A stretch of 64,000 bases of DNA from Bradyrhizobium sp. CCGUVB1N3 (GTDB taxonomy: Bacteria > Pseudomonadota > Alphaproteobacteria > Rhizobiales > Xanthobacteraceae), in assembly GCF_024199925.1 (NCBI RefSeq), contig NZ_JANADR010000001.1, forward strand, positions 1,922,001 to 1,986,000, written 5' to 3'. Made by a program: the position numbers and the translations under genes. The notes beneath the pieces are model-generated. The model saw nothing but the letters and a program-made list of their open reading frames with translations, ran no database searches and was not told the origin of the DNA. This document shows positions 8,609 to 22,056 of the stretch, in pieces. Within the stretch, counting starts at the first letter, position 1; every line of letters starts with the position of its first letter.

Positions 8609-8657
8609 ATTTTGCGGCCGTTTTTATTTGCGGCTGTTGGTCGTAGCCTTCACGTCC

Positions 8658-9188
8658 ATGATCGCAACCCTGGACGAGGGAAACGTTGGTGGCTACTCGG
8701 TCGCCTATGGCCGCGACGACACCTATTTCCCCGTCTACGTGACGGCGGCGCTGGCCGCGATCTTCTGCACAGCCGCCCTCCTCACCGGCGCGCTGTATTG
8801 GCTTGTGCTCGCAGCGCTCGCTGCCGGCTTCACCTACTACAACATTCCGCTGCTCGAGACCGGCCGCCCCACGATCGGTGCCAATCAATACGGCATCTTC
8901 ATCCAGGCCTTCGGCCTAGTCCGGTGGCGCGCAATCGAGCGCATCGATCTCGTCGAGATCGCCGAACGCGCGATGACGGTGCACGAGCTGCAAATCGTCC
9001 TCAACGCGCCTTTGACCAGCGCGCTGGTCGCCGACTGGCGCAAGCAGCCGTCCTGGCGCTGGCTGATGCGCCTGCCCTGGCGGATGAGCCACACCAACAT
9101 GGTGCGGATCAATGTCGAGCCGTTCGACCAGCCGCCCGACATGATCCATCGCACGTTCCTGAGGATGTGGCGCTACTACCGCAGCTAG
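8658..9188 (+). CDS. Membrane protein of unknown function; its 3' end is duplicated downstream
   Basis: 176-residue protein with two hydrophobic helices (about residues 22-60, within VYVTAALAAIFCTAALL and YWLVLAALAAGFTYY). A soluble C-terminal domain with conserved Trp/Arg patches follows (WRKQPSWRW, RMWRYYRS). ATG 8658 is taken as start; a TTG at 8628 in frame is the alternative. Not recognised. Its last 60 codons and about 76 bases of downstream DNA recur almost unchanged at 14965-15214. This marks the gene as the left edge of a duplicated or integrated segment. Confidence 0.75.
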   Translation: MIATLDEGNVGGYSVAYGRDDTYFPVYVTAALAAIFCTAALLTGALYWLVLAALAAGFTYYNIPLLETGRPTIGANQYGIFIQAFGLVRWRAIERIDLVEIAERAMTVHELQIVLNAPLTSALVADWRKQPSWRWLMRLPWRMSHTNMVRINVEPFDQPPDMIHRTFLRMWRYYRS

Positions 9189-9264
9189 GCGCGCACGCAT
9201 GGGTCATGTCCGCTTCGCTCCAATAATGACCACTTTTGTGCAGGAGCAGCAAAACGACGCGATG
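9007..9264 (+). repeat. Direct repeat A, copy 1 (intact gene end)
   Basis: Covers the 3' third of the membrane-protein gene plus about 76 bases beyond its stop. The second copy is 14965-15214. The two copies differ at only a few positions by eye and diverge abruptly after GACGCGATGG. Confidence 0.9.
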
Positions 9265-9301
9265 GCCAGGAGCGGACTCAGTGTCCTCAGGAGCATTATG
9301 C

Positions 9302-10224
9302 TAGGGCGTGTACTCATAAAATGCTTCGAATGCGGAAGCGTCCTCATCGGTCCGCAACCAGAGCGCGCCGTCAAAAGTCTTTTGGTGACCATCGCGCGGG
9401 TATAATATTGTTTGGAGCTGCCGACGGGAAACGCCGAATTCCCGGTGGTGCGACACAGGCAGCCATCGTGCTGTCGGCAGGCAAATACGTCTCAAATTAC
9501 GATTTTTAGTTCTGTCAGCGATTGGGCGCTGTCCCATCGCTTTTGCACCGGGAGGTCACAATGAATCGGAAGACTCTTTTCGCCGGCATTCTAGCCGCTG
9601 GCTTCATGGCAACGTCTGCGATGGCTCCTAGCGTCGGGCACGCTCAGGCAGACCCGAGGGTCACAAAATCCATGGAGACCTTGAAGTCTATGACAGCGAA
9701 ACTGGGAGCGCCAAAGCTCGACGGCAAAGAGGCGGTCGGCGGCAAGGAAGCTCCTGCCCTGTATTTCGGTACGACCAAGGTCAACAACAATTTCGATATT
9801 GTTGACGCAATTGGAAAGGAAGACGGCAAAGGGATGACGGCCACTCTGTTCGCGAAAAGTGGAGACGAATACATCCGCGTCGCCACGAGTGTACCGAAGC
9901 CCGACGGCAGCGGTCGAGCGGTGGGCACCGTACTGGCAGGACCGGCGCTCGAGTCGATCAAAGCAGGCAAAGCGCATTATGGCGAAGTCCCTATTCTGGG
10001 AACACCCTACGTAACGGGCTACGAGCCGATGATGGATAGCTCGGGCGCTCAAATTGGCGTCTACTATGTGGGTTACAAGAAATAACTAGCCCGTTCTCGG
10101 AGTTTTCTTGCTAAAAACCGACGAGCCGAAACGAACTCGACGCGAGGGGGACTATTTTGCGTAGCTGGGGTTCGAAGTGGCCAGTCGCTGACCCGCCTGC
10201 GTTGGTTTATGAGTACACGCCCTA
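9302..10224. mobile_element. IR-bounded, transposase-free element carrying a Cache-domain gene
   Basis: The ends are perfect inverted repeats: CTAGGGCGTGTACTCATAAA at 9301-9320 and its exact reverse complement at 10206-10225. Taking GGGCGTG...CACGCCC (9304-10222) as the element, a TA lies immediately outside each end, and the flanks rebuild CTAG. This is the target and TA duplication expected for IS630/Tc1-mariner-type insertion. No transposase is encoded inside; the only gene is the periplasmic Cache protein. It could be a non-autonomous element, or two solitary IS ends captured around a cargo gene. Family assignment rests on the TA/CTAG pattern only. Confidence 0.75.
9561..10085 (+). CDS. 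Secreted stand-alone Cache-domain protein
   Basis: 174-residue protein with an N-terminal signal peptide (MNRKTLFAGILAAGFMATSA, cleavage likely after the AQA near residue 31). The remainder is one small-ligand-binding domain of the Cache 2/Cache 3 type: DEYIRVATSVPKPDGS, a GPALESIKAGKAHYG stretch and GYEPMMDSSGAQIGVYYVG are typical. Cache domains are usually the sensor part of chemoreceptors or kinases; here the protein ends after the domain, so it would be a free periplasmic binder. GGGAGG lies 5 bases before the ATG. The gene sits alone between the inverted repeats and looks less GC-rich than its neighbours, consistent with transfer. Confidence 0.85.
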   Translation: MNRKTLFAGILAAGFMATSAMAPSVGHAQADPRVTKSMETLKSMTAKLGAPKLDGKEAVGGKEAPALYFGTTKVNNNFDIVDAIGKEDGKGMTATLFAKSGDEYIRVATSVPKPDGSGRAVGTVLAGPALESIKAGKAHYGEVPILGTPYVTGYEPMMDSSGAQIGVYYVGYKK

Positions 10225-10225
10225 G

Positions 10226-10481
10226 CTTTTGGCTGACGGCCGCTCCTTTTGCCATTGCACGAGAAGGATCGCCCTAAGCGTCAGCCCAGCGCCAGCCGAC
10301 ACGTCCGTCAGGCGACGGCCGCCTACCGGCGTTGTTGAGATGATCGTTGCAGCGTTGAAAGAAGGGACCCGCGCGCTAAAACGACACTTCTTCGCTGTGG
10401 TCGTCGAGCCAGGCGGATCAGCAGCTTTGGTGATGCCGGCAACTTGGCATCGACCAAGCGCTGTGTCATGTTGCATGAATA
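10226..10481. other. Gap without recognisable gene
   Basis: About 250 bases between the right inverted repeat of the Cache element and the ankyrin gene. Several short frames are open, but none resembles a known protein. It may be the residue of the locus into which the element inserted. Confidence 0.4.
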
Positions 10482-10502
10482 ATGACGAGGGAGGATTGTC
10501 TC

Positions 10503-11423
10503 TTGTCCCGGCACGTTGGAGCTCCATGCTCGGCCGCAATGCTCGTACTTTGGTCTGCGTCGGCTGGCCTCGCTGGCGACTCAGAAAAATGTCGGGAAAT
10601 CGGCCTTCGGTTTCAAACCGCGCAATCTCAGATCACTGCAATGGAGGTATCGTTACTTCTATTCTCGGTAGCGGACGAGAATTGCACCGAGTTGGCGACC
10701 GAGCTGCTGGACTATGGCGCGTCGGTGGACGCGCGCGACCGGTTTGGAGCCCGCCCGCTCAGCCACGCCGCGCGATCCGGCCACTTGGAAATGGTCGATC
10801 TTTTGCTTGCGCGTGGCGCTCCAATCGATGCGCGCAATCTCGCAGGCGCGACAGCGCTATACTTCGCGGCTGAACGCGGTCAGGTCGCTGTCGCGCAGCG
10901 ACTTGTTGAACGCGGCGCCGACGTCAAACTCACCGGACGCAGTGGAGTTTCACCGGTCGCGGCCGCCGCCTATGCGGGCAGCGACGCAATCATCGAGACG
11001 CTACTCGCGCATGGCGCCGACGAACGCGTCTCCGACGACACCGGAAAGCCACCGATTGTCTACGCGGCGGCCCGCGCCCGGCTTGACATTGTGAAGCGCC
11101 TGCTTTCGCGAAGCATCGATATCAATGCCCGCTATCGGAATGATCTGACGCTGCTGATGTGGGCTGCGGGTCCGGATGAAAAAATTCCGGAGACGGAGGC
11201 CGTCAAGGTCGTGAAGTATCTACTGGAGTCAGGCGCGCACATCGATGATCGCGATGCCCGCGGCCGGACGGCTCTCATGATCGCCGCCGAAGGCGGGCGC
11301 GCTGAGATCGCCGGTCTCCTGCTCGCGCGAGGCGCCGATCCTTCGCTCAAGGACAACGCGGGCAAACGCGCCGCGGATCTCACCTCACTATCGTTGTTGC
11401 GTGATCGACTGGCCACACCGTAG
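10503..11423 (+). CDS. Secreted ankyrin-repeat protein
   Basis: About 306 residues. After a likely signal sequence (AAMLVLWSASAGLAG) the protein consists of roughly seven ankyrin repeats, recognisable by GARPLSHAARSGHLEMVDLL, GATALYFAAERGQVAVAQRL and GRTALMIAAEGGRAEIAGLL. Ankyrin repeats bind other proteins, and periplasmic ones often accompany redox enzymes. The start is uncertain: TTG 10503 has a strong AGGGAGG 8 bases upstream, while ATG 10482 would place that site inside the gene. It is convergent with the cytochrome c and PQQ dehydrogenase genes, and a partnership with them is only an inference. Confidence 0.8.
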   Translation: MSRHVGAPCSAAMLVLWSASAGLAGDSEKCREIGLRFQTAQSQITAMEVSLLLFSVADENCTELATELLDYGASVDARDRFGARPLSHAARSGHLEMVDLLLARGAPIDARNLAGATALYFAAERGQVAVAQRLVERGADVKLTGRSGVSPVAAAAYAGSDAIIETLLAHGADERVSDDTGKPPIVYAAARARLDIVKRLLSRSIDINARYRNDLTLLMWAAGPDEKIPETEAVKVVKYLLESGAHIDDRDARGRTALMIAAEGGRAEIAGLLLARGADPSLKDNAGKRAADLTSLSLLRDRLATP

Positions 11424-11437
11424 CGAGGGCACGTCCT

Positions 11438-11518
11438 AGAGCATGATCCGGAAAAGTGTGAAGCGGTTTTCCCTCGCGACAAACGCGGAACGCGTTTGCG
11501 CGGAGATCATGCTCAAAC
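11438..11518. repeat. Dispersed imperfect palindromic repeat, copy 2
   Basis: Same family as 5319-5396: begins AGAGCATGATCCGGAAAAG, contains AAGCGGTTTTCC and a GCGGAACGCGTTTGCGC core, and ends GATCATGCTCAAA. It lies between the convergent ankyrin and cytochrome c genes. Confidence 0.85.
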
Positions 11519-11568
11519 AAGAAGCTAAAGCGCGATGATGACCCTTCCCAATCTCATCGAGCTTTAGT

Positions 11569-12138
11569 CTAAAGACCAGCGAGATATTGCACGAGCGCTG
11601 CAAGATCGTCGACAGGCGTGGCGAGCATCAGATCGGTCATGCCGGGGTTGTTGCCGCGCGCACGGGTGCGGAAATCGGCGATTGTCTTGGCGAGGTATTC
11701 CCGGCTCTGCCCGGCCAGGCGCGGTGTGGTGCCACTACCTTGAAACTGATCGCGATGACAGCCGGTGCAGCCTACCGAATGCTCGGCGCTGAGCGCCTGC
11801 TGGGCCACATGCTTCGGCGCGCGGGGTTGGCCCAGATCAGGCCACGGCTTTTGTGCGAAATACTCCGCGATCGCCAGCATATCGTCCTTCTCGAAGGACG
11901 ACACGGTCAGCTGCTTAATCTCGTTCTTGCGGTCACCCCGTTTGAAGTCGCGCAGCTGGATGTAGATGTAGCCGGCTTGCTGTCCCCAGATGATGGGAAT
12001 CGACTCGTTGCTCGGCTTGCCGTCCTGGCCGTGGCAGCCGGCGCAGACCTCGACTTTTTCCGCGATGCTTTGTGCAAAGGCGGGGGCTGCGGTCAACAAT
12101 GCCCCGAGGATCGTCCCGATCGAAATCACCCAGTTCAC
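11569..12138 (-). CDS. Diheme c-type cytochrome
   Basis: 189-residue periplasmic electron carrier. It has two CxxCH heme c motifs, CAGCH near the N-terminus and CTGCH near residue 107, each with a later Met as possible axial ligand, in the cytochrome c4/c553-like two-domain layout. The signal peptide is ISIGTILGALLTAAPAFAQ. The start is taken as GTG 12138, because the longer in-frame version would run into the PQQ dehydrogenase gene. It is 79 bases downstream of the PQQ dehydrogenase on the same strand, so it probably takes electrons from that enzyme. Confidence 0.85.
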   Translation of the reverse strand: MNWVISIGTILGALLTAAPAFAQSIAEKVEVCAGCHGQDGKPSNESIPIIWGQQAGYIYIQLRDFKRGDRKNEIKQLTVSSFEKDDMLAIAEYFAQKPWPDLGQPRAPKHVAQQALSAEHSVGCTGCHRDQFQGSGTTPRLAGQSREYLAKTIADFRTRARGNNPGMTDLMLATPVDDLAALVQYLAGL

Positions 12139-12217
12139 ATTGCAGACCGTCGAATTCCGGTGGGGTTTACAGAAGCGGGGCCGACCATGGCCCCGCATCT
12201 GTGATCGCGACGTTCGT

Positions 12218-13930
12218 TCAATCGAGCGTAAAGGCGATGATGTTGTTGCCACGCCTGAAGTTCACCTGAGTGTTACCGCCCGCGCCGACCACGATGTATT
12301 GCTTATCGCCCACCGAATAGCTGGACGGCGGTGCATTGACGCCCGCACCGGCGCGGAAGCTCCACAATTCCTTGCCGGTGGACGAGTTGTAGGCAGCGAA
12401 CTTGCCGTTGCCTTCACCAGTAAAGACCAGACCGCCCGCGGTGGCGAGAATGCCGCCGATCATCGGCTCTGGCGTTTTCACCTGCCATCTGATCTTGCCG
12501 GTGTTGTAGTCGACTGCGGTGATATTTCCCGCCTGCTTCTCACCTGGAATGGCCGTGAAGGCGCCACCAAGCCAGAGCTTGCCGTTCGGATAGGGCGAGT
12601 TCTCGACCCGGTAGTGCATGGGCTGATGCAGATTGATGGCGTAGGCGAGCCCCTGTCCGGGGTCGGTAGCGATCGGCGACCATTCGACGCCGCCGTTTGC
12701 CCCTGGAAGCATGCGCGCGCCTTCCTTGGTCGGCAAGGTCCACATATTCTCCTGCGGCACCATCGCCTCAGAGAACCGGATCAGGCTGCAGTCTTTCCGG
12801 TCGTGAACATAGATGTGACCGGTTTTGCCGGCATGGATCACGCCCGGAATGGTCTTGCCGTCCTTGTCCTGCACATCCACCAGCACCGGCGGGCTCGCGG
12901 CATCGAGATCCCAGACGTCGTGGGCAATATACTGAAGGTGGCAGACGAAGTTTCCGGTATCCAAGTCAAGCGATACCAGCGAGTTGGTGTAGAGATTGTC
13001 GCCGGGGCGCGGCGCACCGTCGAGGTCGGGAGATGGATTGCCGACCACGAAATAGATCCGGTTGGTGGAGAGATCGACAGCGGGATTTTGCCAGACGCCG
13101 CCGCCCAGCTTCTTGTAGGGGTCGCCGATCTTGGCGAGTTGGTCCTTTTCAGCCTGGATATCGCGATGCATGTCGCGCCCAGTAGCGTCCTTGGTTGCCC
13201 AGACGCCGACGGAATTTTCTGGGATGGTGTCGAAATTCCAGACCAGCTTGCCGGTCTTCGCATCATAGGCCCTGACAAAGCCGCGGACGCCGTATTCGCC
13301 GCCGTTGGTGCCGATCAAGACCTTGTCCTTGACGACCGTCGGAGCCATCGTCTCGCTGTAGCCGAACTCGGGATCAGCGATATCGCTGCTCCAGACGACT
13401 TCGCCGGTATTCGCATTCAATGCCACCAGCTTGGAGTCCAGCGTGGCCAGGTAAACCTTGTCACCGAGAACCTGGACACCGCGATTATTGGGACCGCAGC
13501 AGTAGGTCGTTATGGGCCCCATCTTGTGGCTATAGTGCCAGAGCTGTTCGCCCGTCTTAGCGTCGATCGCATAGACATGGCTGAACGATGTCGTCACGTA
13601 CATCACACCATCGATCACAATGGGCGACGTTTCGAGGGATTCCTTGACCTCGGCCTGGAAGATCCAGGCGACGTGCAGGTTTTTCACATTGTCGCGGTTG
13701 ATCTGCTTTGCAGGATGAAAGCGCGTTTGAGCGTAGTTGCCGTTGGTCAGCAGAAAGTTCGTTGCATTCTTGTCCGCTGCATTGAGCTGGTCTTGAGTGA
13801 CCGGAGAAACCTTCGCCTCGCGCGGAGGCGACCATTCATCCTGCAGCTTGACTTCTTGCGCATGACTTGATGCTGCGAGCGTGCAGCCCAGACCGAACAA
13901 CGTGGCGTATGCGACAGAATATCTTTTCAT
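12218..13930 (-). CDS. PQQ-dependent alcohol dehydrogenase, predicted lanthanide type
   Basis: Periplasmic quinoprotein of the eight-bladed propeller family that oxidises alcohols or aldehydes and passes electrons to cytochrome c. Signal peptide: first 24 residues (to SSHAQ). The adjacent-cysteine disulfide that covers PQQ is C144-C145 ([11 protein letters not shown]). Predicted metal ligands by family pattern are E212 (GGEYG), N298 (GNPSP) and the catalytic Asp D341 in HDVWDLD. D343, two residues on, occupies the place of the second Asp of the DYD motif that marks lanthanide-dependent enzymes; calcium-dependent MxaF has Ala there. 570 residues is normal length, and there is no fused heme domain. 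The substrate is unknown. Confidence 0.9.
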
Positions 13931-14246
13931 GGCTCAGCCCCGTAATTATTCGAATTATCGGAACAGGCGCTCATGTACGTCTGCTCTTGAATTCTGATCG
14001 TGCGAAACCTGTTTTACAAGCAGAAAGCCACTAGGGGCGCGAGCCTCGGGGCGCTCAAGCCTTTGACGCAGCGGGCGTTGCAGTGCCTAAATCTCCGCGA
14101 CGCGACCGCTGCAGTGCCGCATGCAATTCAGCAGGTCAGGTCACGGATGCAGACAAGCGTGCGCTGCCATCAGAGAAATGTCGGCAAGTCGCAACAGCTC
14201 TCTAGGTCATAGTCCCTACCATAATGCAGAGACCTATGTCCGAGTC
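13931..14246. other. Upstream region of the PQQ dehydrogenase, no gene seen
   Basis: About 315 bases that should contain the leftward promoter of the PQQ dehydrogenase operon. I find no convincing coding frame, hairpin or known operator. It ends where repeat B copy 1 begins. Confidence 0.4.
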
Positions 14247-14956
14247 GGGTCAGTTTCGACGGATTCAGCGGGCGTCATCGGCTGGTTGAAGTCCGCTTTG
14301 CCCCGAAAGCGCCGAAGCCGGGAGCGTTGCGTTTGGCCGCCTTGCTGCGACCTCCTTGCCTTCGTCCAGTGGCAGCGATCGGCTATGGCTGGCTACGCGC
14401 CAATGACTCACGTCCGCTGCACGAGCTGCGCATAGGCCTCCGCCCGCATGCCGTAGGTCCAGGCGACCGCCTCGCGCGCGGTGCGCAGATTGGCCGGCAC
14501 CTGGACGAAGAAATGCCGGCGCGTGCCGTCGGGCTCGGGCGTGGCGTTGACCACCTCCACCGCGGCCCAGGCGTCCGCGGCGAGCCAGTTCCGCCGCCAC
14601 AGGATTCCGGTCTCGTCTTCGGCGATGCGGGTCGCGCCGCCGAGCGCGACATAACGTTCCGGCGTCATGATCTCGATCATGCAGCGGCGGACCTGGACAT
14701 CGATCTGCTCGTCGATCGCGGCCAGCGTGATCCGGTCCTTGTGCTCGATGATCCAGCGCGGCACCTCCACCCCGCGCCAGGCCCAGATCGACCAGCCGTC
14801 CGGATAGCGCATCGCCGGACCGCTGGCGTGATGCAACCGGTCGCGCGCGTCACCGCACAACAAATTCGGTCGCTCGACGAGCCAGCAGGTACGTTCATGC
14901 GGCTGTAGCCAGCCGACACTGGTGGCGAGCAGCATCAGGCCGCGCAGCGGCTGAAT
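14247..14956 (-). repeat. Direct repeat B, copy 1 (truncated)
   Basis: Copy of 21343-22056: the 3' half of the DUF6745 gene and about 160 bases beyond its stop. The copies differ by scattered substitutions and small indels, for example a GGGGACAGGTC stretch present only in the right copy. The homology stops sharply after GCAGCGGCT at about 14955. Confidence 0.9.
14408..14956 (-). pseudogene. 3' fragment of a DUF6745 gene
   Basis: Encodes about the last 180 residues of the DUF6745 protein (from PLRGLMLLATSVGW to LVQRT), in the same orientation as the intact gene at 21512-22639 and with a few amino-acid changes. The 5' half is missing. Reading upstream, the frame runs into the antisense of a membrane-protein fragment. 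It is therefore a recombination scar and not a functional gene. Confidence 0.9.
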
Positions 14957-15139
14957 GTGCCGCTGACCAGCGCACTGGTCGCAGACTGGCGCAAGCAGCC
15001 GTCCTGGCGCTGGCTGATGCGCCTGCCCTGGCGGATGAGCCACACCAACATGGTGCGGATCAATGTCGAGCCGTTCGACCAGCCGCCCGACATGATCCAT
15101 CGCACGTTCCTGAGGATGTGGCGCTACTACCGCAGCTAG
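14957..15139 (+). pseudogene. 3' fragment of the membrane-protein gene at 8658
   Basis: Encodes the last 58 or so residues (LTSALVADWRKQ through RMWRYYRS and stop), identical to the intact gene apart from the first few codons. It abuts the DUF6745 fragment back to back at about 14957-14965. Confidence 0.9.
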
Positions 15140-15214
15140 GCGCGCACTCATGGGTCATATCCGCTTCGCTCCAATCATGACCACTTTTGTGCAGGAGCAG
15201 CAAAACGACGCGAT
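14965..15214 (+). repeat. Direct repeat A, copy 2
   Basis: Matches 9007-9264, including the sequence after the stop up to GACGCGATGG. Beyond that point the two copies lead into unrelated DNA. Confidence 0.9.
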
Positions 15215-15265
15215 GGGGCAGAATCAGAAGTTGACCGAAGACAAAAAGCTGCCTTGTCAGCCGCC

Positions 15266-16135
15266 TTACTTCGCGCGGATCAACGATTGTAGGGTTACGT
15301 TGAGGCCGGGCCTCAACAGATAGTCTGGGTTCGGAAACTCCACAGCGATCTGGGTCGTCTGCGTTGCTACATCGAACTCGTAGCTCCCTGCGGCGAGACG
15401 TCCCTTGTGTGGATACTTGTCGCTGTTTGGCAGGACGATGCCGAACTCACGCCGCTCGGCAATCTGCTCAATGCTCGGGACCGTTTCGCCGCGCTGAAAA
15501 TACATGGCGGCAGGCGCCTGACCGACCACATGAATTGGATCCAATTGGACGATGGTGGCGAGACGACTCTGATCGCGCGCCTCCTTGGTGATGTACGCTC
15601 CTTCATTGACCAAGGGACGACCGATGATGCCAGATATTGGCGCGTAAAGCTTCGTTTGCTGCAAAGCCAGGTCGGCAAGCTGCACGTTGGCACGTGCTTC
15701 GTCGGCCTTGGCCGCCGCGAGATCGCGCTGTGCTTCCGCCTCCAGCAACTGCATTTGGGAGGTAACGTTGCGGGTCCGGAGGGTCTGCGCGTTCTTTAGC
15801 TTGACCTCGACAAGGCGCAACTGCGCCTCCGCCTCTTTCAGGTGTGCCTGGGCAACTGCGACGGAGAGTTCCTTGTCCTTTGACGCGAACTCGAACAGAA
15901 GATCGCCTTTCTTGACAAGCTGGCCGGCGGTGAAGTTGATCTTGAGCAGAAGTCCATCAAGCCGGGGCGCTACTTCCGCTTCGCGCGCAGCGGCCACCGT
16001 TCCCTTGTATTCAAGGACGTCAGGCGTAGCCGGTTGCTGGGCGGCGGCCGCCTGGATCATCAGGCAAGCCACAGCGAATGTCGGGATGATCCGCAGACGG
16101 AGCGATCTTAGGCTGTCGATCTCAATTGCGCTCAT
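15266..16135 (-). CDS. Membrane-fusion (periplasmic adaptor) protein, HlyD/RND type
   Basis: 289 residues. Signal peptide within residues 16-33 (IPTFAVACLMIQAAAAQ). Biotinyl-lipoyl half-domains flank a coiled-coil hairpin of about 80 residues rich in Ala/Glu/Gln/Leu (AHLKEAEAQLRLVEVKLKNA); the second lipoyl half is KLYAPISGIIGRPLVNEG. A beta-barrel segment closes the protein. It is shorter than the usual 350-400 residues and lacks most of the membrane-proximal domain. No RND, ABC or MFS pump gene is adjacent. AGGAGG lies before the start, 27 bases after the symporter stop, so it is the last gene of the GH1-symporter-adaptor operon. Confidence 0.85.
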   Translation of the reverse strand: MSAIEIDSLRSLRLRIIPTFAVACLMIQAAAAQQPATPDVLEYKGTVAAAREAEVAPRLDGLLLKINFTAGQLVKKGDLLFEFASKDKELSVAVAQAHLKEAEAQLRLVEVKLKNAQTLRTRNVTSQMQLLEAEAQRDLAAAKADEARANVQLADLALQQTKLYAPISGIIGRPLVNEGAYITKEARDQSRLATIVQLDPIHVVGQAPAAMYFQRGETVPSIEQIAERREFGIVLPNSDKYPHKGRLAAGSYEFDVATQTTQIAVEFPNPDYLLRPGLNVTLQSLIRAK

Positions 16136-16162
16136 TGCAGCCTCCTGTGCAGTTACTCGTAT

Positions 16163-17035
16163 TTAGCGTACGCCGTGGGTCGTGGGCCCGGTGGCTCGCA
16201 TCCGCTTGCGCCACAGTTGGTAGGGAGCGACAGCAATCTCGCTCACGATGACGGCGAATAGAACGCCGATTGGGGCCAGCGGTTGATCCATGAGACCCGC
16301 GACGACGATCGCGACGCCGGGATGACGCGATACCGTCGCAAACGCGAGTACGGTGCGGTCGTCCGGGCCGGGCCCGCCGAGAAAATGACCGACGGCGAGC
16401 CCAATCAGCGTCACCATGGTAATTGCCGTCAATGTGCCTTCCTGGATGACCAAGCCCAGGCGAGACCAAACGACAACCAGAAGGGCGACATTGCAGACAG
16501 CGAGCACGACAGAACTCACCGTCTGAATCGCGGAGTTCCACCGCGTCGCTGCGGGCCACCACCGCGCGATCGCAAGGCCGATGCCGAGTGGCAGCAGCAC
16601 GGAACTGACTACCACTTCCGTGACCGACAGCGGATTGACATGCACGTCCCCGCCGAAGATCACTTGCATCAGCTCGACGGCGAGCGGCGTGAGGACCACC
16701 GACAGCACGATGCTCGCGAAAAAAAGCCCTCTCGCGTAGACAGCATTTCCGGGCGCCACAAGTGGCAGCATGCCCTGCGAGAATAGGGATCCCACCGGGG
16801 CGACAGCGAGCGTAACGAGCGCGAGAGTCACCGCGGGATGCAGCGAGAACATTTTGCAGATCAGCACGGCGATGATCGGCGCCAGCACGTTCATGGCGAG
16901 CAGAGACCGCAAGAGAAGCGAAGGCCTGCCGAAGAGATATCGCAAATCCGCGGGCGCGACACGCATGCCAACTGCCAGCACCGCGAGAAAGATGCTGGCC
17001 GTCAATGCAAGCCCTATGAGCGCCAAGACGCTCAC
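16163..17035 (-). CDS. Bile acid:sodium symporter (BASS/SBF-like) family transporter
   Basis: 290-residue integral membrane protein with about nine to ten hydrophobic helices. LALVTLAVAPVGSLFSQGMLPL and the GNAVYARGLFFASIVLS stretch resemble the BASS/ArsB-like fold, including a broken-helix Pro/Gly region. ATVSRHPGVAIVVA near the C-terminus is typical of the family. It presumably couples uptake or export of an organic anion to Na+. GTG start at 17035 with TAGGAGA upstream, 10 bases after the GH1 stop, so it is translationally close to GH1. The actual substrate is unknown. Confidence 0.8.
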   Translation of the reverse strand: MSVLALIGLALTASIFLAVLAVGMRVAPADLRYLFGRPSLLLRSLLAMNVLAPIIAVLICKMFSLHPAVTLALVTLAVAPVGSLFSQGMLPLVAPGNAVYARGLFFASIVLSVVLTPLAVELMQVIFGGDVHVNPLSVTEVVVSSVLLPLGIGLAIARWWPAATRWNSAIQTVSSVVLAVCNVALLVVVWSRLGLVIQEGTLTAITMVTLIGLAVGHFLGGPGPDDRTVLAFATVSRHPGVAIVVAGLMDQPLAPIGVLFAVIVSEIAVAPYQLWRKRMRATGPTTHGVR

Positions 17036-17045
17036 GCCGCTTCTC

Positions 17046-18466
17046 CTACACCACTGCGTTCTGCCGGGCCGCCTCCCGGAACCACTCGGCGCTCAGCTTC
17101 GGGATACGCTCCAACGTGTCGAAGTTGACGTAGATCAGCCCGAACCGGTTGCCGAAGCCGTCAATCCACTCGAAATTGTCCTGCGCGCTCCAGAGGAAGT
17201 ACCCATCGACCGGCACGCCCTCCGAGGTCGCCCGCTGGAGTTGGCCCAAACAAGCGCGCAGGAACATCACCCGGTCCGAGTCGTACACCCTGCCGTCCTC
17301 GGCAACCACGTCGGACGCTGCGCAGCCGTTCTCGGTGATGAAGATGGACCGCGCGCCCCAGATCTTCTGCATATGGCGTGACGCCCAGTACATGACCTCC
17401 GGGTCGAGGACATGCCACGACGACTGCATCTTTGGATGGGAGGCGTTAAGCGGGATGTCCCGGTAGCCCGGCGGCTCGTCGGACGGCTCTACGTACCAAC
17501 GGGGCTTGTAGACGTTGATGCCGACGAAATCGAGCGGCGAGGCGATCGTCTTCAGCTCCTCCTCGGTGAACTTGGGAGCCCCGCCGCCGGGCTCGGCCAG
17601 ATACGCCTCGGTGTACCGCCCCTCGAGCATGACCGTCGTGAAGCCGGCGTTGCGCTCGCGCGTCACCGTCTCCGCGGCCTTTACGTACGCGGGCTCATCG
17701 ATGACCGGGACCGCGACGCTGAGGTTTTCCGCGAAGCCGACCTTTGTGCCGGCCGGCGAGCGGGCCCGGATCGCCTGGACAGCGAGGCCGTGCCCGAGCA
17801 CGGCGTGATGCCGGACCTGCTTCAGTTCGGAATCGGAGAGAGAGAGAGCCCGGGCGCACCGCCAAGGCGGACCTTCTTCCCGCCGCCAACGTCGACGTCG
17901 ATAACCTGGTAGCCGCCCTCTACGAACGAGCGGAACTCGTTGATCGTGAAGTAGTGCTTCACACGGTCGCCAAGCTGCTCGGCCACGTAGCCGGCGTAGT
18001 CAGCGAATACTTTCGCCGTCTGTTTGGACCGCCAGCCGCCGTACTTGTCTTGCAGCGTCTGCGGCAGGTCCCAGTGGTAGAGCGTGGCGAACGGCTCGAT
18101 TCCCGCGCCGAGCAGCTCGTCGACGAGGCGTTTGTAGAAGTCGAGCCCCTTCTGGTTGTGCTGGCCGGTGCCTTCAGGGAAGATCCGCGGCCAGGCGATC
18201 GAGAACCGGTACGCCTTGACGCCGATCGATTTCATCAGCGCTACGTCTTCCTTGTACCGGTGGTAGTGGTCGTTCGCGACGTCGCCGTTGTCGTCGTTCT
18301 TGATGTTGCCGGGCGTGTGCGCAAACGTGTCCCAGATCGACATGCCCTTGCCATCGTCGTTCCATGCTCCCTCGATCTGGTACGACGACGTGGCGACGCC
18401 CCAGTAGAACCCGTCAGGGAAGCGGCGGCCGATGGAAGCGGGCGACTTGGCTGCTATGGCGTTCAT
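17046..18466 (-). pseudogene. GH1 beta-glucosidase, frameshifted at a CT dinucleotide repeat
   Basis: Family 1 glycoside hydrolase (retaining beta-glucosidase or related) in two frames. The 5' part (18466 to 17822) carries [16 protein letters not shown], the YHWDLPQ motif and the acid/base glutamate in FTINEF, where classical enzymes have NEP. The 3' part (from about 17850 to 17046) carries the nucleophile motif ITENG and the SAQDNFEW aglycone-site segment. The break falls in (CT)6 of the coding strand (17837-17848 on the plus strand). Removing one CT joins [10 protein letters not shown] in frame and restores a normal protein of about 470 residues. It may be a decayed gene, a phase-variable gene or a sequencing error. 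Confidence 0.92.
17837..17848. repeat. (AG)6 microsatellite inside GH1
   Basis: Six AG units on the plus strand (CT on the coding strand). The GH1 frame breaks exactly here; five units would give an intact protein. Confidence 0.9.
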
Positions 18467-18834
18467 TGACGGACCCTCCGTTTTTCCAAGCTATCCCGAG
18501 GTGATCAAACGGTTCTCTTACGAATCCAACATCGTGACAGAGCGAGCGCTCCTCGCCTTCGTGACGAGCAGTTTTCCGATTCTGGTGAGCTTGGCACTGG
18601 ACGGTAATGTCGTTCGAACTGCCCGCGCTCATCACTACCGAACGGCTCGATGACGACGTCGCCGGAGAACCCAGTGTGCGGGCCAGCAGGCTCATCTCCT
18701 CGTCGAGGAAGTGCAGCCGCCGCTCCTCGCTCTTTCAATATCCGGCACCGGCCAGCTTCCAAATATGCGTGCGTAGGCGCGAAAGTGCGGGACCAACTTG
18801 CCCGACAGATAAATAGGGTGCCGCACAGCGGTTT
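18467..18834. other. Upstream region of GH1, no identifiable gene
   Basis: About 370 bases 5' of GH1. A minus-strand stretch (roughly 18530-18760) has coding-like composition, but its frames are interrupted and match nothing I recognise. It may hold the promoter of the leftward operon and a gene remnant. Confidence 0.35.
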
Positions 18835-18848
18835 TTGACCTAGATCAA
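18835..18848. promoter_or_regulatory. FNR/FixK-type box
   Basis: TTGACCTAGATCAA, a full match to TTGA-N6-TCAA, the binding site of FNR/FixK2-class regulators that control microaerobic genes in Bradyrhizobium. It lies 216 bases before the apparent original GH3 start (19051) and about 370 bases from GH1. No other oxygen-regulated gene is close. Confidence 0.55.
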
Positions 18849-19050
18849 GGGTAGTCCGCGTCAGGTCTCCATAAGTTCTTCACGGCTGTCGCGGTAACGC
18901 TGTGATGTCATTCAGCATTGAAGCGTGCTTTGGCTGCGCTCCGCACCGTGCCTAACGAAGTGTCGAAAATCTGAAAGGCCGAGGCCTCCGTCGCACGAGC
19001 AGACACTGAGGGCACGCCGGCCGTGTGGGCGATCAAGGGAGGAATGGGCA

Positions 19051-19161
19051 ATGATTGCGCACTTCACCCGGCGCGGGGTTGCAAAGCTAGGCGGCTAAGC
19101 AGCGTTTGCGAATTCCAGCGACGGCCCCGCCGTCGCACAAACAACCTCGCCGAGGCCAGCC
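19051..19161 (+). pseudogene. Interrupted export leader of the GH3 enzyme
   Basis: ATG 19051 is preceded by GGGAGGA and is exactly in frame with the GH3 gene (37 codons upstream of 19162). It encodes MIAHFTRRGVAKLGG, then a TAA stop at 19096-19098, then AAFANSSDGPAVAQ and on into GH3. Without the stop this reads as a twin-arginine (Tat) signal peptide ending near AVAQ. The leader thus appears to be broken by a single nonsense codon. Confidence 0.7.
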
Positions 19162-21291
19162 ATGTCATCACCCGATGAGCGCGCGCGCGAAACGGAACAG
19201 AAGTTGACCGATGACGAGCGGTTCTCGCTCATCGTCAGCCTCGTCGGAGCCGTTCCTTCCATTGGCGTTCCTCGTGACAGGCGCATTCCTGAAGCCGTCA
19301 AGAACATGAGTGCAGGCTATACGCCCGGAGTTCCGCGGCTGGGCATTCCGGCGCTACAGTCGAGCGACGCCAGCATGGGCGTCACCAACCCAGGCTATCG
19401 GCCCGACGACAAGGGCGCGACAGCGTTCCCGGCGTCCATTGTGGTCGGCTCGACCTTCAATCCGCAGCTCGCACGTTATGGCGGCGCCGCAATCGGCCGC
19501 GAGGCGCGGATGCGAGGGTTCAACATCATGCTCGCCGGCGGGATCAACCTCGCTCGCGATGTCCGCAATGGCCGGAACTTCGAATACTACTCCGAGGATC
19601 CGTGGGTGAGCGCAGTATTCGGCGCGGAAGCCGTCAACGGCATTCAGGCTGAGGGTGTCATCTCGACTCTCAAGCACTTCACACTGAACTGCAACGAGAC
19701 CAACCGCCACTGGCTCGATGCCGTTATCGATCCCGTCGCGCATCGCGAGTCCGATCTGCTCGCGTTCCAGATCGCGATCGAGCGCTCGCAGCCTGGCTCG
19801 ATCATGAGCGGGTACAACAAGGTCAATGGCTTTTACCTCAGCGGAAACCATCACTTGCTGAATGAAGTGCTCAAAGGCGCCTGGGGCTACAGGGGCTACG
19901 TGATGTCGGATTGGGGCGCGGTGCCCGAATGGGATTACGCGCTCAACGGACTCGACCAGGAATCCGGGATCCAGATGGATGTCAAGCAGTGGGGCGCCGA
20001 GGCGTTCACCGACCGGCTGAGGAAAGCTTACGCCGAGGGGAAACTGCCGAAGGAGCGCCTCTCCGATATGGTGCGCCGCATCCTGCGCTCAGCCTACGCG
20101 GTGGGCATCGACAAGTGGGGCGCTGCGCCCGCAGTCGACATTGGCAAGCACAACGAAATCGCGCTTGAAATCGCCCGGCAGGGCATCGTCTTGCTGACGA
20201 ACGACGGCGCGCTGCCGCTCGCCACGGACAGGCCGCTAAAGATCGGCGTTGTCGGCGGCTATGCGCAATTGGGTGTGCCGAGTGGCACCGGTTCAGGAGC
20301 CGTTCTTCCGGTAGGCGGCTTTGCAGCAACCGTAAACATCGGAGGCGCACACGGCGTGATGGGAAACATACGCAACCTGTTCCTCCTGCCATCGTCGCCG
20401 CTCGCCGAGCTAAAGAAGCTCTTGCCGCAGGCTCAGATCGAGTTCGACGGAGGGTACACGCCGGCGGAGTCGGCCTTGCTGGCGGGGCGATCCGACGTGG
20501 TCATCGCATTCGGGATTCGGGTTGAGGGCGAAGCGTTCGACCTCCCCGACCTTTCCTTGCCGTGGGGCCAGGACGCGATCATCGATGCGGTCGCGACCGC
20601 CAACCCCAACACCATAGTTGTGCTGGAAACCGGCAACCCGGTGTCCATGCCGTGGCGCGACAAGGTCAAGGCTATAATTCAGGCCTGGTATCCCGGGCAG
20701 GCGGGCGGGCAGGCCATTGCCGAGGTGTTGACCGGCAAGGTCAATCCCTCGGGAAGGCTGCCGATCACCTTTCCGGCGAGCCTTGTCCAAACGCCGCGGC
20801 CGGAGCTATCCGGCATCGCGACTCCCTGGGGAACGCCAACGACGATCCGCTACGACGAGGGCGCGGAGGTTGGCTATCGCTGGTACGCGCACAAAGGCGT
20901 CGCGCCGCTCTACGCTTTCGGCCACGGTCTGAGCTATACGACGTTCTCCTATGGCGATTTGAATGTGAGTGGCGGCGAAACCGTCACCGCCATGTTGACC
21001 GTGACCAATACTGGTCAACATGAAGGCGCCGATGTGCCGCAGGTTTATCTGACCGAAGCTGCGGGCTACAAACGCATGCGGCTCCTCGGGTTCGACCGTG
21101 TCGTCCTGAAGCCAGGCGAATCGAAGCGCGTGACCATCACCGCCGATCCGCGCCTCCTCGCCCGCTTCGATGACAGTGCCGGCCGCTGGCGCATCGCCGC
21201 TGGCACCTATCGTATTGCAGTCGGCAAATCGGCCGAAGATCTGCCGCTGAACGCCGACACCCGATTGGATACGCGGCTGTTTGGGTCGTGA
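19162..21291 (+). CDS. GH3 family beta-glucosidase/glycosidase
   Basis: 709-residue family 3 glycoside hydrolase that removes terminal beta-linked sugars. The (beta/alpha)8 domain carries the nucleophile D250 in YVMSDWGA, the KHF...N substrate-binding segment near 171 and RNGRNFEYYSEDP near 137. The alpha/beta sandwich domain follows (RSDVVIAFGIRVEGE). A C-terminal fibronectin-III-like domain ends the protein (LTVTNTGQHEGADVPQVYL). From ATG 19162 the protein would be leaderless and cytoplasmic. The natural start seems to be 19051, but that frame is stopped at codon 16. ATG 19162 lacks a good ribosome site, so expression is doubtful. Confidence 0.85.
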   Translation: MSSPDERARETEQKLTDDERFSLIVSLVGAVPSIGVPRDRRIPEAVKNMSAGYTPGVPRLGIPALQSSDASMGVTNPGYRPDDKGATAFPASIVVGSTFNPQLARYGGAAIGREARMRGFNIMLAGGINLARDVRNGRNFEYYSEDPWVSAVFGAEAVNGIQAEGVISTLKHFTLNCNETNRHWLDAVIDPVAHRESDLLAFQIAIERSQPGSIMSGYNKVNGFYLSGNHHLLNEVLKGAWGYRGYVMSDWGAVPEWDYALNGLDQESGIQMDVKQWGAEAFTDRLRKAYAEGKLPKERLSDMVRRILRSAYAVGIDKWGAAPAVDIGKHNEIALEIARQGIVLLTNDGALPLATDRPLKIGVVGGYAQLGVPSGTGSGAVLPVGGFAATVNIGGAHGVMGNIRNLFLLPSSPLAELKKLLPQAQIEFDGGYTPAESALLAGRSDVVIAFGIRVEGEAFDLPDLSLPWGQDAIIDAVATANPNTIVVLETGNPVSMPWRDKVKAIIQAWYPGQAGGQAIAEVLTGKVNPSGRLPITFPASLVQTPRPELSGIATPWGTPTTIRYDEGAEVGYRWYAHKGVAPLYAFGHGLSYTTFSYGDLNVSGGETVTAMLTVTNTGQHEGADVPQVYLTEAAGYKRMRLLGFDRVVLKPGESKRVTITADPRLLARFDDSAGRWRIAAGTYRIAVGKSAEDLPLNADTRLDTRLFGS

Positions 21292-21342
21292 CGCGAAACG
21301 GCTCGCGTCTGACTCGGTGAAGGGGCTTGAGTCCGCTCCGGG

Positions 21343-22056
21343 TCATTTTCGACGGATGCAGCGGGCGTCATCGGCTGGTTGAAGTCCGCTTTGCCCCGAA
21401 AGCGCCGAAGCGGGGACAGGTCGGGAGCGTTGCGTTTGGCCGCCTTGTTGCGAACTACCTTGCCTTCGTCCAGTTGCAGCGATCGGCTATGGCTGGCTAC
21501 GCGCCAATGAGTCACGTCCGCTGCACGAGGTGAGCATAGGCCTCCACCCGCATGCCGTAGGTCCAGGCGACCGCTTCGCGCGCGGTGCGCAGATTGGCCG
21601 GCACCTGGAGGAAGAAATGCCGGCGCGTGCCGTCCGGCTCGGGCGTGGCGTTGACGACCTCCACCGCGGCCCAGGCGTCCGCGGCGAGCCAGTTCCGCCG
21701 CCACAGGATTCCGGTCTCGTCCTCGGCGATGCAGGTCGCGCCGCCGAGCGCGACGTAACGTTCCGGCGTCATGATCTCGATCATGCAGCGGCGGACCTGG
21801 ACGTCGATCTGCTCGTCGATCGCGGCCAGCGTGATCCGGTCCTTGTGCTCGATGATCCAGCGCGGCACCTCCACCCCGCGCCAGGCCCAGATCGACCAGC
21901 CGTCCGGATAGCGCAGCGCCGGACCGCTGGCGTGATGCAACCGGTCGCGCGTGTCGCCGCACAACAGATTCGGTCGCTCGACGAGCCAGCAGGTGCGTTC
22001 ATGCGGCTGTAGCCAGCCGACACTGGTGGCGAGCAGCATCAGGCCGCGCAGCGGCT
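21343..22056 (-). repeat. Direct repeat B, copy 2 (intact gene end)
   Basis: Covers the 3' half of the intact DUF6745 gene and about 170 bases beyond its stop. It is homologous to 14247-14956, and the homology ends inside the gene near GCGGCTCGGTCTCGG. Confidence 0.9.

Follow-up and report, generated by a model that had tools for sequence, protein, structure and literature searches.

Transporter insertion sequences (tIS) are derivatives of insertion sequences (IS) that carry passenger genes (PMC9330008; PMC3129680; PMC7986276), and they are among the described systems closest to the locus analyzed here. This locus lies in a 64,000-nucleotide (nt) stretch of Bradyrhizobium sp. CCGUVB1N3 DNA, referred to as the window, in which two different sets of genes (cargo 1 and cargo 2) stand in series between a convergent pair of border genes, A on the left and B on the right. 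Each set is enclosed by the same remnants of what we read as a decayed IS5-family passenger transposon. As in tIS, a transposase gene and IS-family terminal inverted repeats are combined in such elements with unrelated passengers between them and with a short target repeat, CTAG. Unlike tIS, the copies in the window are fossils with a deleted transposase and a lost right end, and the passengers vary between elements while the sub-terminal modules, i.e., the left end (LE) and the first part of the right end (RE1), stay alike in many of them. The tIS literature, in the parts available to us (PMC9330008; PMC3129680; PMC7986276), describes no IS5-family case in Bradyrhizobium, and a literature search likewise returned, in the text available from it, no description of an IS5-family passenger element in this genus.

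A second precedent concerns the way in which the two sets may have come to lie side by side. Homology-facilitated illegitimate recombination, with displaced 3' gene modules, has been proposed for the type VI secretion system (T6SS) immunity arrays of V. cholerae and for rhs loci (PMC5361080). As far as the available part of that account goes, the incoming allele is anchored by homology on one side and closed by an illegitimate joint on the other, with the older module displaced alongside, and the window would resemble this arrangement if its two units were joined in that way. Unlike the V. cholerae arrays, the units in the window are whole passenger sets of a dead transposon between two convergent genes, and the scar is made of truncated copies of both border genes, with intact A and B outside. 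In a tandem gene duplication, a segment is directly repeated and a unique, novel microhomology joint is formed; the two units in the window differ from this in carrying different genes. On balance, we consider it probable, with real room for doubt, that the locus arose by the serial joining of two alleles of a single site, alleles that shared the dead element and differed in its cargo.

A scar of both border genes between two intervals

By repeat search of positions 7-24 kb (seed 12, minimum length 40 nt), we found direct repeats at 9000-9265 and 14951-15216 (96% over 266 nt), at 14354-14653 and 21458-21757 (96%) and at 14225-14323 and 21318-21416 (88%), and no inverted repeats of at least 40 nt. 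When the genome was searched with its own sequence, the entire right repeat (21339-22056 versus 14246-14952) was 95% identical. Repeats of this length (several hundred bp) and identity (95-96%) lie far outside what chance would produce. The repeats and the back-to-back scar described in an initial annotation of this DNA are therefore real, with left-gene copies at 96% and right-gene copies at 95%. Its claim that the two intervals share only their ends and hold different genes was also borne out, as no further repeats between them were detected at the same settings.

The junction stretch, searched against its own genome (10.4 Mb in three contigs), matched itself, the right gene (95%) and the left gene (96%), the seven other matches being short dispersed repeats; the joint is present once. 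In the alignment, right-gene identity extends to 14952 (corresponding to 22056), and left-gene identity begins at 14951 (corresponding to 9000), or at 14950 if the usual left-gene sequence of other species is taken. Right-gene sequence thus runs through GCGGCT and is followed by left-gene sequence from CTGAATGTG. The initial annotation had placed this junction at 14957-14965; the junction exists, some 5-15 nt further left than that. Among the 16 relatives shown, 14 have GCT in the left gene at the joint point (GCTGAA in 10 and GCTCAA in four), the exceptions being G106 (ACTGAA) and G041 (CTTGAA); the window's own left copy has CCTCAA. Given this, the two partners probably shared GCT, a 3-nt microhomology, and the scar holds one illegitimate joint with short homology at 14950-14952. 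Microhomology wording does not occur in the available part of PMC3240628. An open frame of 247 aa (14408-15151, minus strand) is retained across the joint, made up of the antisense of the A fragment and the C-terminal part of the DUF6745 protein encoded by B.

To place the scar in context, the border genes were followed through 265 Bradyrhizobium genomes, one per species and including the genome studied here, by protein searches at E <= 1e-20 to which DNA searches and alignment were added. In the DNA searches across the genus, one or two candidate places were scored in each genome, so that further copies may be missed. Gene A was present in 64 of the 265 genomes and was accompanied by a close gene B in 18, our own genome included in both counts. 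The 46 of 63 other genomes with gene A and no close gene B yielded no distance, and the weak gene B matches of G032 and G149 (34-35% identity) were excluded from the distance count. In 15 of the 17 other genomes with both genes, A and B were convergent and 9-204 bp apart, measured between protein-match edges with stop codons included. One A match and one B match were found in each of the 17, except in G031, where B is one gene in two pieces. The two remaining genomes carry inserts at the A-B site with other content than the window cargoes. In Bradyrhizobium sp. Ec3.3 (G121), 8.7 kb separates A and B, with ABC_sub_bind, PDZ/alpha-beta-hydrolase, DUF2867 and sulfatase families inside. In B. centrolobii BR 10245 (G040), A and B lie on two contigs, both of which end within a group II intron reverse transcriptase.

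The CTAG at the stop codon of gene A recurs in eight of the 12 empty or nearly empty sites shown, and the insert of G040 is bordered by CTAG on the left and CTGG on the right, as expected of a target-site duplication when compared with the empty site. We therefore read A and B as an ancestral convergent pair and the interval as an insertion at the CTAG of the A stop codon. The initial annotation was upheld in its geometry, a unit that starts within the left gene, ends within the right gene and is set in series with different cargo; it had overlooked that the site is empty in 15 of the 17 relatives and that the ends common to both intervals derive from a decayed passenger transposon of the IS5 family. 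As separate observations on these genes, B is decaying or lost in some species, with only about 72 bp of its 3' end left beside A in G223 (L087) and one internal stop each in G096 (L079) and G031 (L077). The B. centrolobii locus (L070, L071) holds a third cargo at the A-B site, interrupted by the group II intron at which the contigs break; its contig ends (C23 end, C2 start) have about 70 bp in common.

Transposon ends, passengers and decay

Both window intervals open with the same stretch of about 75 bp after the A stop codon (LE) and close with the same stretch of about 165 bp before the B stop codon (RE1 and RE2). Comparison with an IS5-type transposase gene identifies RE1 as its leader and RE2 as its 3' end together with the right inverted repeat. 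A terminal repeat resembling TAGGGCGCGTACTCATAAA (up to five substitutions) lies beside 14 of 22 aligned LE places; in the two window copies it is recognised only when a one-base gap is allowed. LE was found together with RE1 or RE2 in the window, in G040, where the same ends surround a different cargo (a metallo-beta-lactamase-fold gene and the intron), and at eight other loci (L089, L090, L132, L133, L137, L138, L142 and L144). The pairing was assessed at the copies in the own genome and at 20 loci chosen among the LE-like and RE1-like places of other species, with LE at the centre of 12 and RE1 at the centre of eight. At four of the 12 LE-centred and two of the eight RE1-centred loci, the partner lay no more than about 10 kb away, with LE preceding RE and both pointing the same way, and no pair in another order or orientation was seen in the 20. 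The own-genome loci L089 and L090 agree with the LE-RE order, L090 having in addition a weak RE2 match (73%) in the opposite orientation. This consistency of order and orientation led us to reject the idea that LE and RE are random intergenic repeats.

Passengers were recognised between or beside these ends at several places. Locus L145 of G200 holds an element of about 4.0 kb (8653-12664) with both inverted repeats, CTAG on each side and a full 253-aa transposase matching DUF4096 (IS4/5) and DDE_Tnp_1 in Pfam. Its order is CTAG, inverted repeat, passengers (a BKACE-family enzyme, a PNPOx-type protein and an HTH/MLTR regulator), RE1, transposase, inverted repeat, CTAG. It has RE1 and RE2 and no LE match, and is apparently a complete IS5-family transposon with three passenger genes; its flank, sought in 145 genomes, is not conserved, and no empty site was found there. 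CTAG also borders both edges of L138 (G006), with LE, a GNAT gene and a partial transposase, and of L144 (G102), with LE, two sulfatases, RE1 and a deleted transposase. A KaiC-like ATPase and a histidine kinase lie between LE and RE1 in L137, and SIR2-like, DLH and other genes in L142. L132 and L133 are short and without a recognised passenger, the 268-aa frame of L132 having no Pfam match. In all, the passengers belong to different Pfam families at eight places, i.e., two in the window and one each in G040, L137, L138, L142, L144 and L145. Because of the LE/RE pairs, inverted repeats, IS5-type transposase and CTAG at these other loci, we interpret the A-B insert as an IS5-family transposon that carries passengers and occupies the CTAG of the A stop codon.

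The element in the window has decayed, and the same losses are seen in both copies. In a BLAST alignment to the L145 transposase, the match of the cargo-2 copy breaks off at query position 147 and resumes at about 850; for the cargo-1 copy, BLAST gave the first part only, and the same deletion joint was read from the sequence. All that is left of the transposase is its leader, together with some 75 nt from the 3' end. The deletion in G040 is a different, smaller one (213 to 859). The 12 nt carrying the right inverted repeat are missing from both window copies and kept in G040, whose insert retains both terminal inverted repeats; in the window, the left repeat is degenerate and the right one lost. 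Judged by these features, the window copies are fossils that would be unable to move. The shared deletion joint and the shared right-edge loss indicate that both copies descend from one decayed insertion. The element had thus lost its mobility by the time the scar arose, and the wholesale difference in cargo cannot be ascribed to transposition of the element itself. The simplest other source of that difference is recombination, although further mobile elements can contribute pieces, as happened with the nested unit described below.

Two other kinds of origin were considered for the locus. A tRNA-targeted integrative island was rejected on the ground that the window contains no tRNA; no integrase family appeared among the Pfam matches of the cargo proteins scanned. 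An RNA-based explanation was rejected, there being no Rfam match at the gathering threshold.

Proposed order of events and competing explanations

In the order of events that we propose, an IS5-family passenger transposon inserted at the CTAG of the A stop codon in the lineage leading to the window genome and B. centrolobii, as the empty sites and the end structure show. In the window-genome lineage, decay of the transposase and of the right inverted repeat then left the element immobile on its own. Strains may subsequently have acquired different passengers while keeping the dead ends in common, and two such alleles, about 3% apart in B, would have been joined in series. This could have happened by either of two routes. 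In the first, an incoming second allele, starting inside A, would be joined illegitimately into the resident B at the 3-nt microhomology and would recombine homologously with the resident B region on its other side. In the second, a circle of one allele, closed by the A/B joint, would integrate by one crossover. At least 545 bp of homology were available for a crossover in B, and the same product follows from the circle. That product has the order observed, A - cargo 1 - B 3' end, A 3' end - cargo 2 - B, with intact A and B outside. We infer the donor, the route (linear or circular) and the cargo swap inside the fossil.

The divergence of the repeated gene ends bears on this proposal. The gene B copies are 97.1% identical over 545 nt (16 differences) and pair with support of 98/97 in a tree of 19 rows; their nonsynonymous divergence (dN) is 0.015 and their synonymous divergence (dS) 0.079, a ratio of 0.19. 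When the changes were polarised against 12 relatives by majority rule, 11 were assigned to the junction copy, of which eight were silent, compared with an unselected expectation of about 25-28% (P 0.001-0.003). Without a start codon, the junction copy should have drifted freely since the joint was made, and the mainly silent record therefore argues for divergence mainly as a working gene; this copy seems to have diverged mostly while still intact. The idea of two strain versions, raised in the initial annotation, gains support from this mainly silent divergence. Its accompanying claim that the right-gene copies differ more than the left-gene copies fails per site, with 16 of 545 coding positions differing in B and seven of 189 in A, and was rejected as proof of a foreign source. 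All seven differences in gene A, six of them silent, lie within 31 nt beside the joint and are followed by 156 identical nt. Seven differences spread at random cluster in this way (within 33 nt) in about one of 10,000 trials, and the cluster fits a crossover or conversion tract.

Several observations weigh against two stacked alleles. The dN/dS ratio of the copies is slightly above all those against ten other species (0.07-0.17). Of five changes assigned to the right, intact B copy, two are silent and three protein-altering, so that this copy does not look better preserved. The non-coding ends are no more divergent than B, contrary to expectation (RE 6/160 plus 11 gap columns and LE 4/78, versus 16/545 in B; Fisher P 0.61 for RE versus B). 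Changes were polarised with 12 species by majority rule, and the numbers are small. The single-cargo relatives that the initial annotation had suggested looking for were not found, neither cargo 1 nor cargo 2 standing singly at the A-B site in the 265 genomes, one per species and with one or two candidate places scored in each, and other mobile elements could also have brought cargo, as one nested unit did.

The main rival is a tandem duplication that came first, from inside A to inside B and with a single cargo, through illegitimate exchange between sister chromosomes; one cargo would later have been replaced by recombination across LE and RE while the copies drifted to 97%. The initial annotation had offered a simple tandem duplication, which alone cannot give two different cargoes, and the two units indeed share only their ends. 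With the replacement step added, this account predicts the same joint, makes the two B copies each other's closest relatives and leaves derived deletions common to both. The dispersed LE and RE modules could act as the short homologies, and the match of G121 to cargo 2 stops at the LE and RE edges of the window. Under it, however, the junction copy would have lacked a start since the duplication and its changes should be mostly protein-altering, whereas eight of the 11 are silent. An extra cargo replacement across short homologies is required as well, and an unstable tandem repeat would have to survive long enough for a dS of 0.08. We regard this account as possible, at well under even chances.

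Considerably less likely is an artefact in which the assembly fused two alleles or strains. Such an arrangement could result from a mixed culture or from repeats joined in error, but the main contig measures 9.88 Mb in a three-contig assembly, the repeats of 266 and 709 bp are 4-5% divergent, and the two sides meet in a 3-nt joint without homology around it rather than in a crossover inside a repeat. Two independent mobile-element insertions into a tandemly duplicated empty site would accord with the empty site in relatives and with ends that are transposon ends, but were rejected as highly improbable since identical deletions would be needed twice, and the shared transposase joint and right-edge loss instead point to a single insertion, decayed beforehand, as the common ancestor.

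A serial stack of two alleles at this site would explain a puzzling scar and place insertion, decay, cargo change and joining in order. The individual steps are known kinds of event, and the layout suggests that passengers can change after an element of this sort has stopped jumping, i.e., cargo turnover in an immobile transposon, with such fossils as possible homology platforms for gene exchange. The loci above also point to a group of passenger-carrying IS5 elements in Bradyrhizobium. A more speculative proposal, which we put forward as doubtful, is that these transposons with LE and RE1 serve as exchangeable frames, passengers swapping across LE and RE even in dead frames, a fossil between convergent genes offering a lasting docking place and two sets being stackable in series. 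The only full-length match to cargo 2 among those listed is in G121 (94% over 6.1 kb), on a contig other than that of the A-B site, and ends within LE and at the start of RE1. Beyond these edges, LE-like and RE-like sequence can be seen in the alignment, but by BLAST LE was not detected there and RE1 gave a weak match at best (E 0.03), which makes exchangeable frames less likely.

Cargo genes and feature coordinates

The features of the locus are collected in Table 1.

Table 1. Positions in the window of the border genes, scar, transposon ends and cargo genes.
Feature	Position	Strand	Basis or remark
Gene A, left border gene, 186 aa	8628..9188	+	No Pfam or NCBIfam match
CTAG at gene A stop codon, insertion target	9185..9188	.	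Same CTAG in empty or nearly empty sites (see text)
Left end copy 1: degenerate terminal inverted repeat and LE module	9186..9265	+	Alignment of 22 LE places
Nested mobile unit, CTAG and perfect 20-bp inverted repeats CTAGGGCGTGTACTCATAAA (CTAG included), no transposase	9301..10225	.	Sequence comparison
sCache_3-domain protein gene, passenger of nested unit	9522..10085	+	Pfam
Cargo 1: ankyrin-repeat protein gene	10482..11423	+	Pfam
Dispersed repeat of about 130 bp between ankyrin and PQQ genes	11438..11566	.	Absent from G007 and G055 versions of cargo 1
Cargo 1: pyrroloquinoline quinone (PQQ)-dependent methanol/ethanol-type dehydrogenase gene	12218..13930	-	Pfam; TIGR03075 475.8 bits, below 480.05 cut-off
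Right end copy 1: RE1 joined by ~700-bp deletion to transposase 3' end	14248..14407	+	BLAST and sequence reading
Truncated DUF6745 gene, 3' copy of right border gene	14408..14952	-	Alignment and protein comparison
Chimeric junction, 3-nt microhomology GCT	14950-14952	.	Alignment
Truncated gene A, 3' copy of left border gene	14951..15139	+	Repeat search and alignment
Left end (LE) copy 2	15140..15216	+	Alignment
Cargo 2: RND-type periplasmic adaptor gene	15266..16135	-	Pfam/NCBIfam
Cargo 2: bile-acid/sodium-symporter-family (SBF) gene	16163..17035	-	Pfam/NCBIfam
Cargo 2: GH1 beta-glucosidase gene, two frames (17046-17801, 17822-18466)	17046..18466	-	Pfam
Cargo 2: GH3 glycosidase gene	19162..21291	+	Pfam
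Right end copy 2: RE1, with transposase deletion joint and right-edge loss both matching those of copy 1	21341..21511	+	BLAST and alignment
Gene B, right border gene (DUF6745), with an unbroken frame of 379 aa	21512..22651	-	Pfam and protein searches

The nested sCache unit (0.92 kb) also occurs in G220 and G204 (L124, L125), with other outer flanks and CTAG on both sides; with its IS5-type inverted repeats, it is presumably a small passenger unit moved in trans. Relatives of the ankyrin and PQQ genes adjoin each other elsewhere in many genomes among the matches listed. In G007, an LE module lies 44 bp before this pair (75%, E 6e-5), with no RE on the other side. The 130-bp repeat (AGAGCATGATCCGGAAAAGTG...) appears in copies of 93-95% in several Bradyrhizobium genomes, and the A-B gap of G217 seems, by eye, to be filled by similar sequence. 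The GH1 gene is unbroken in G121, where two single-frame versions are present.

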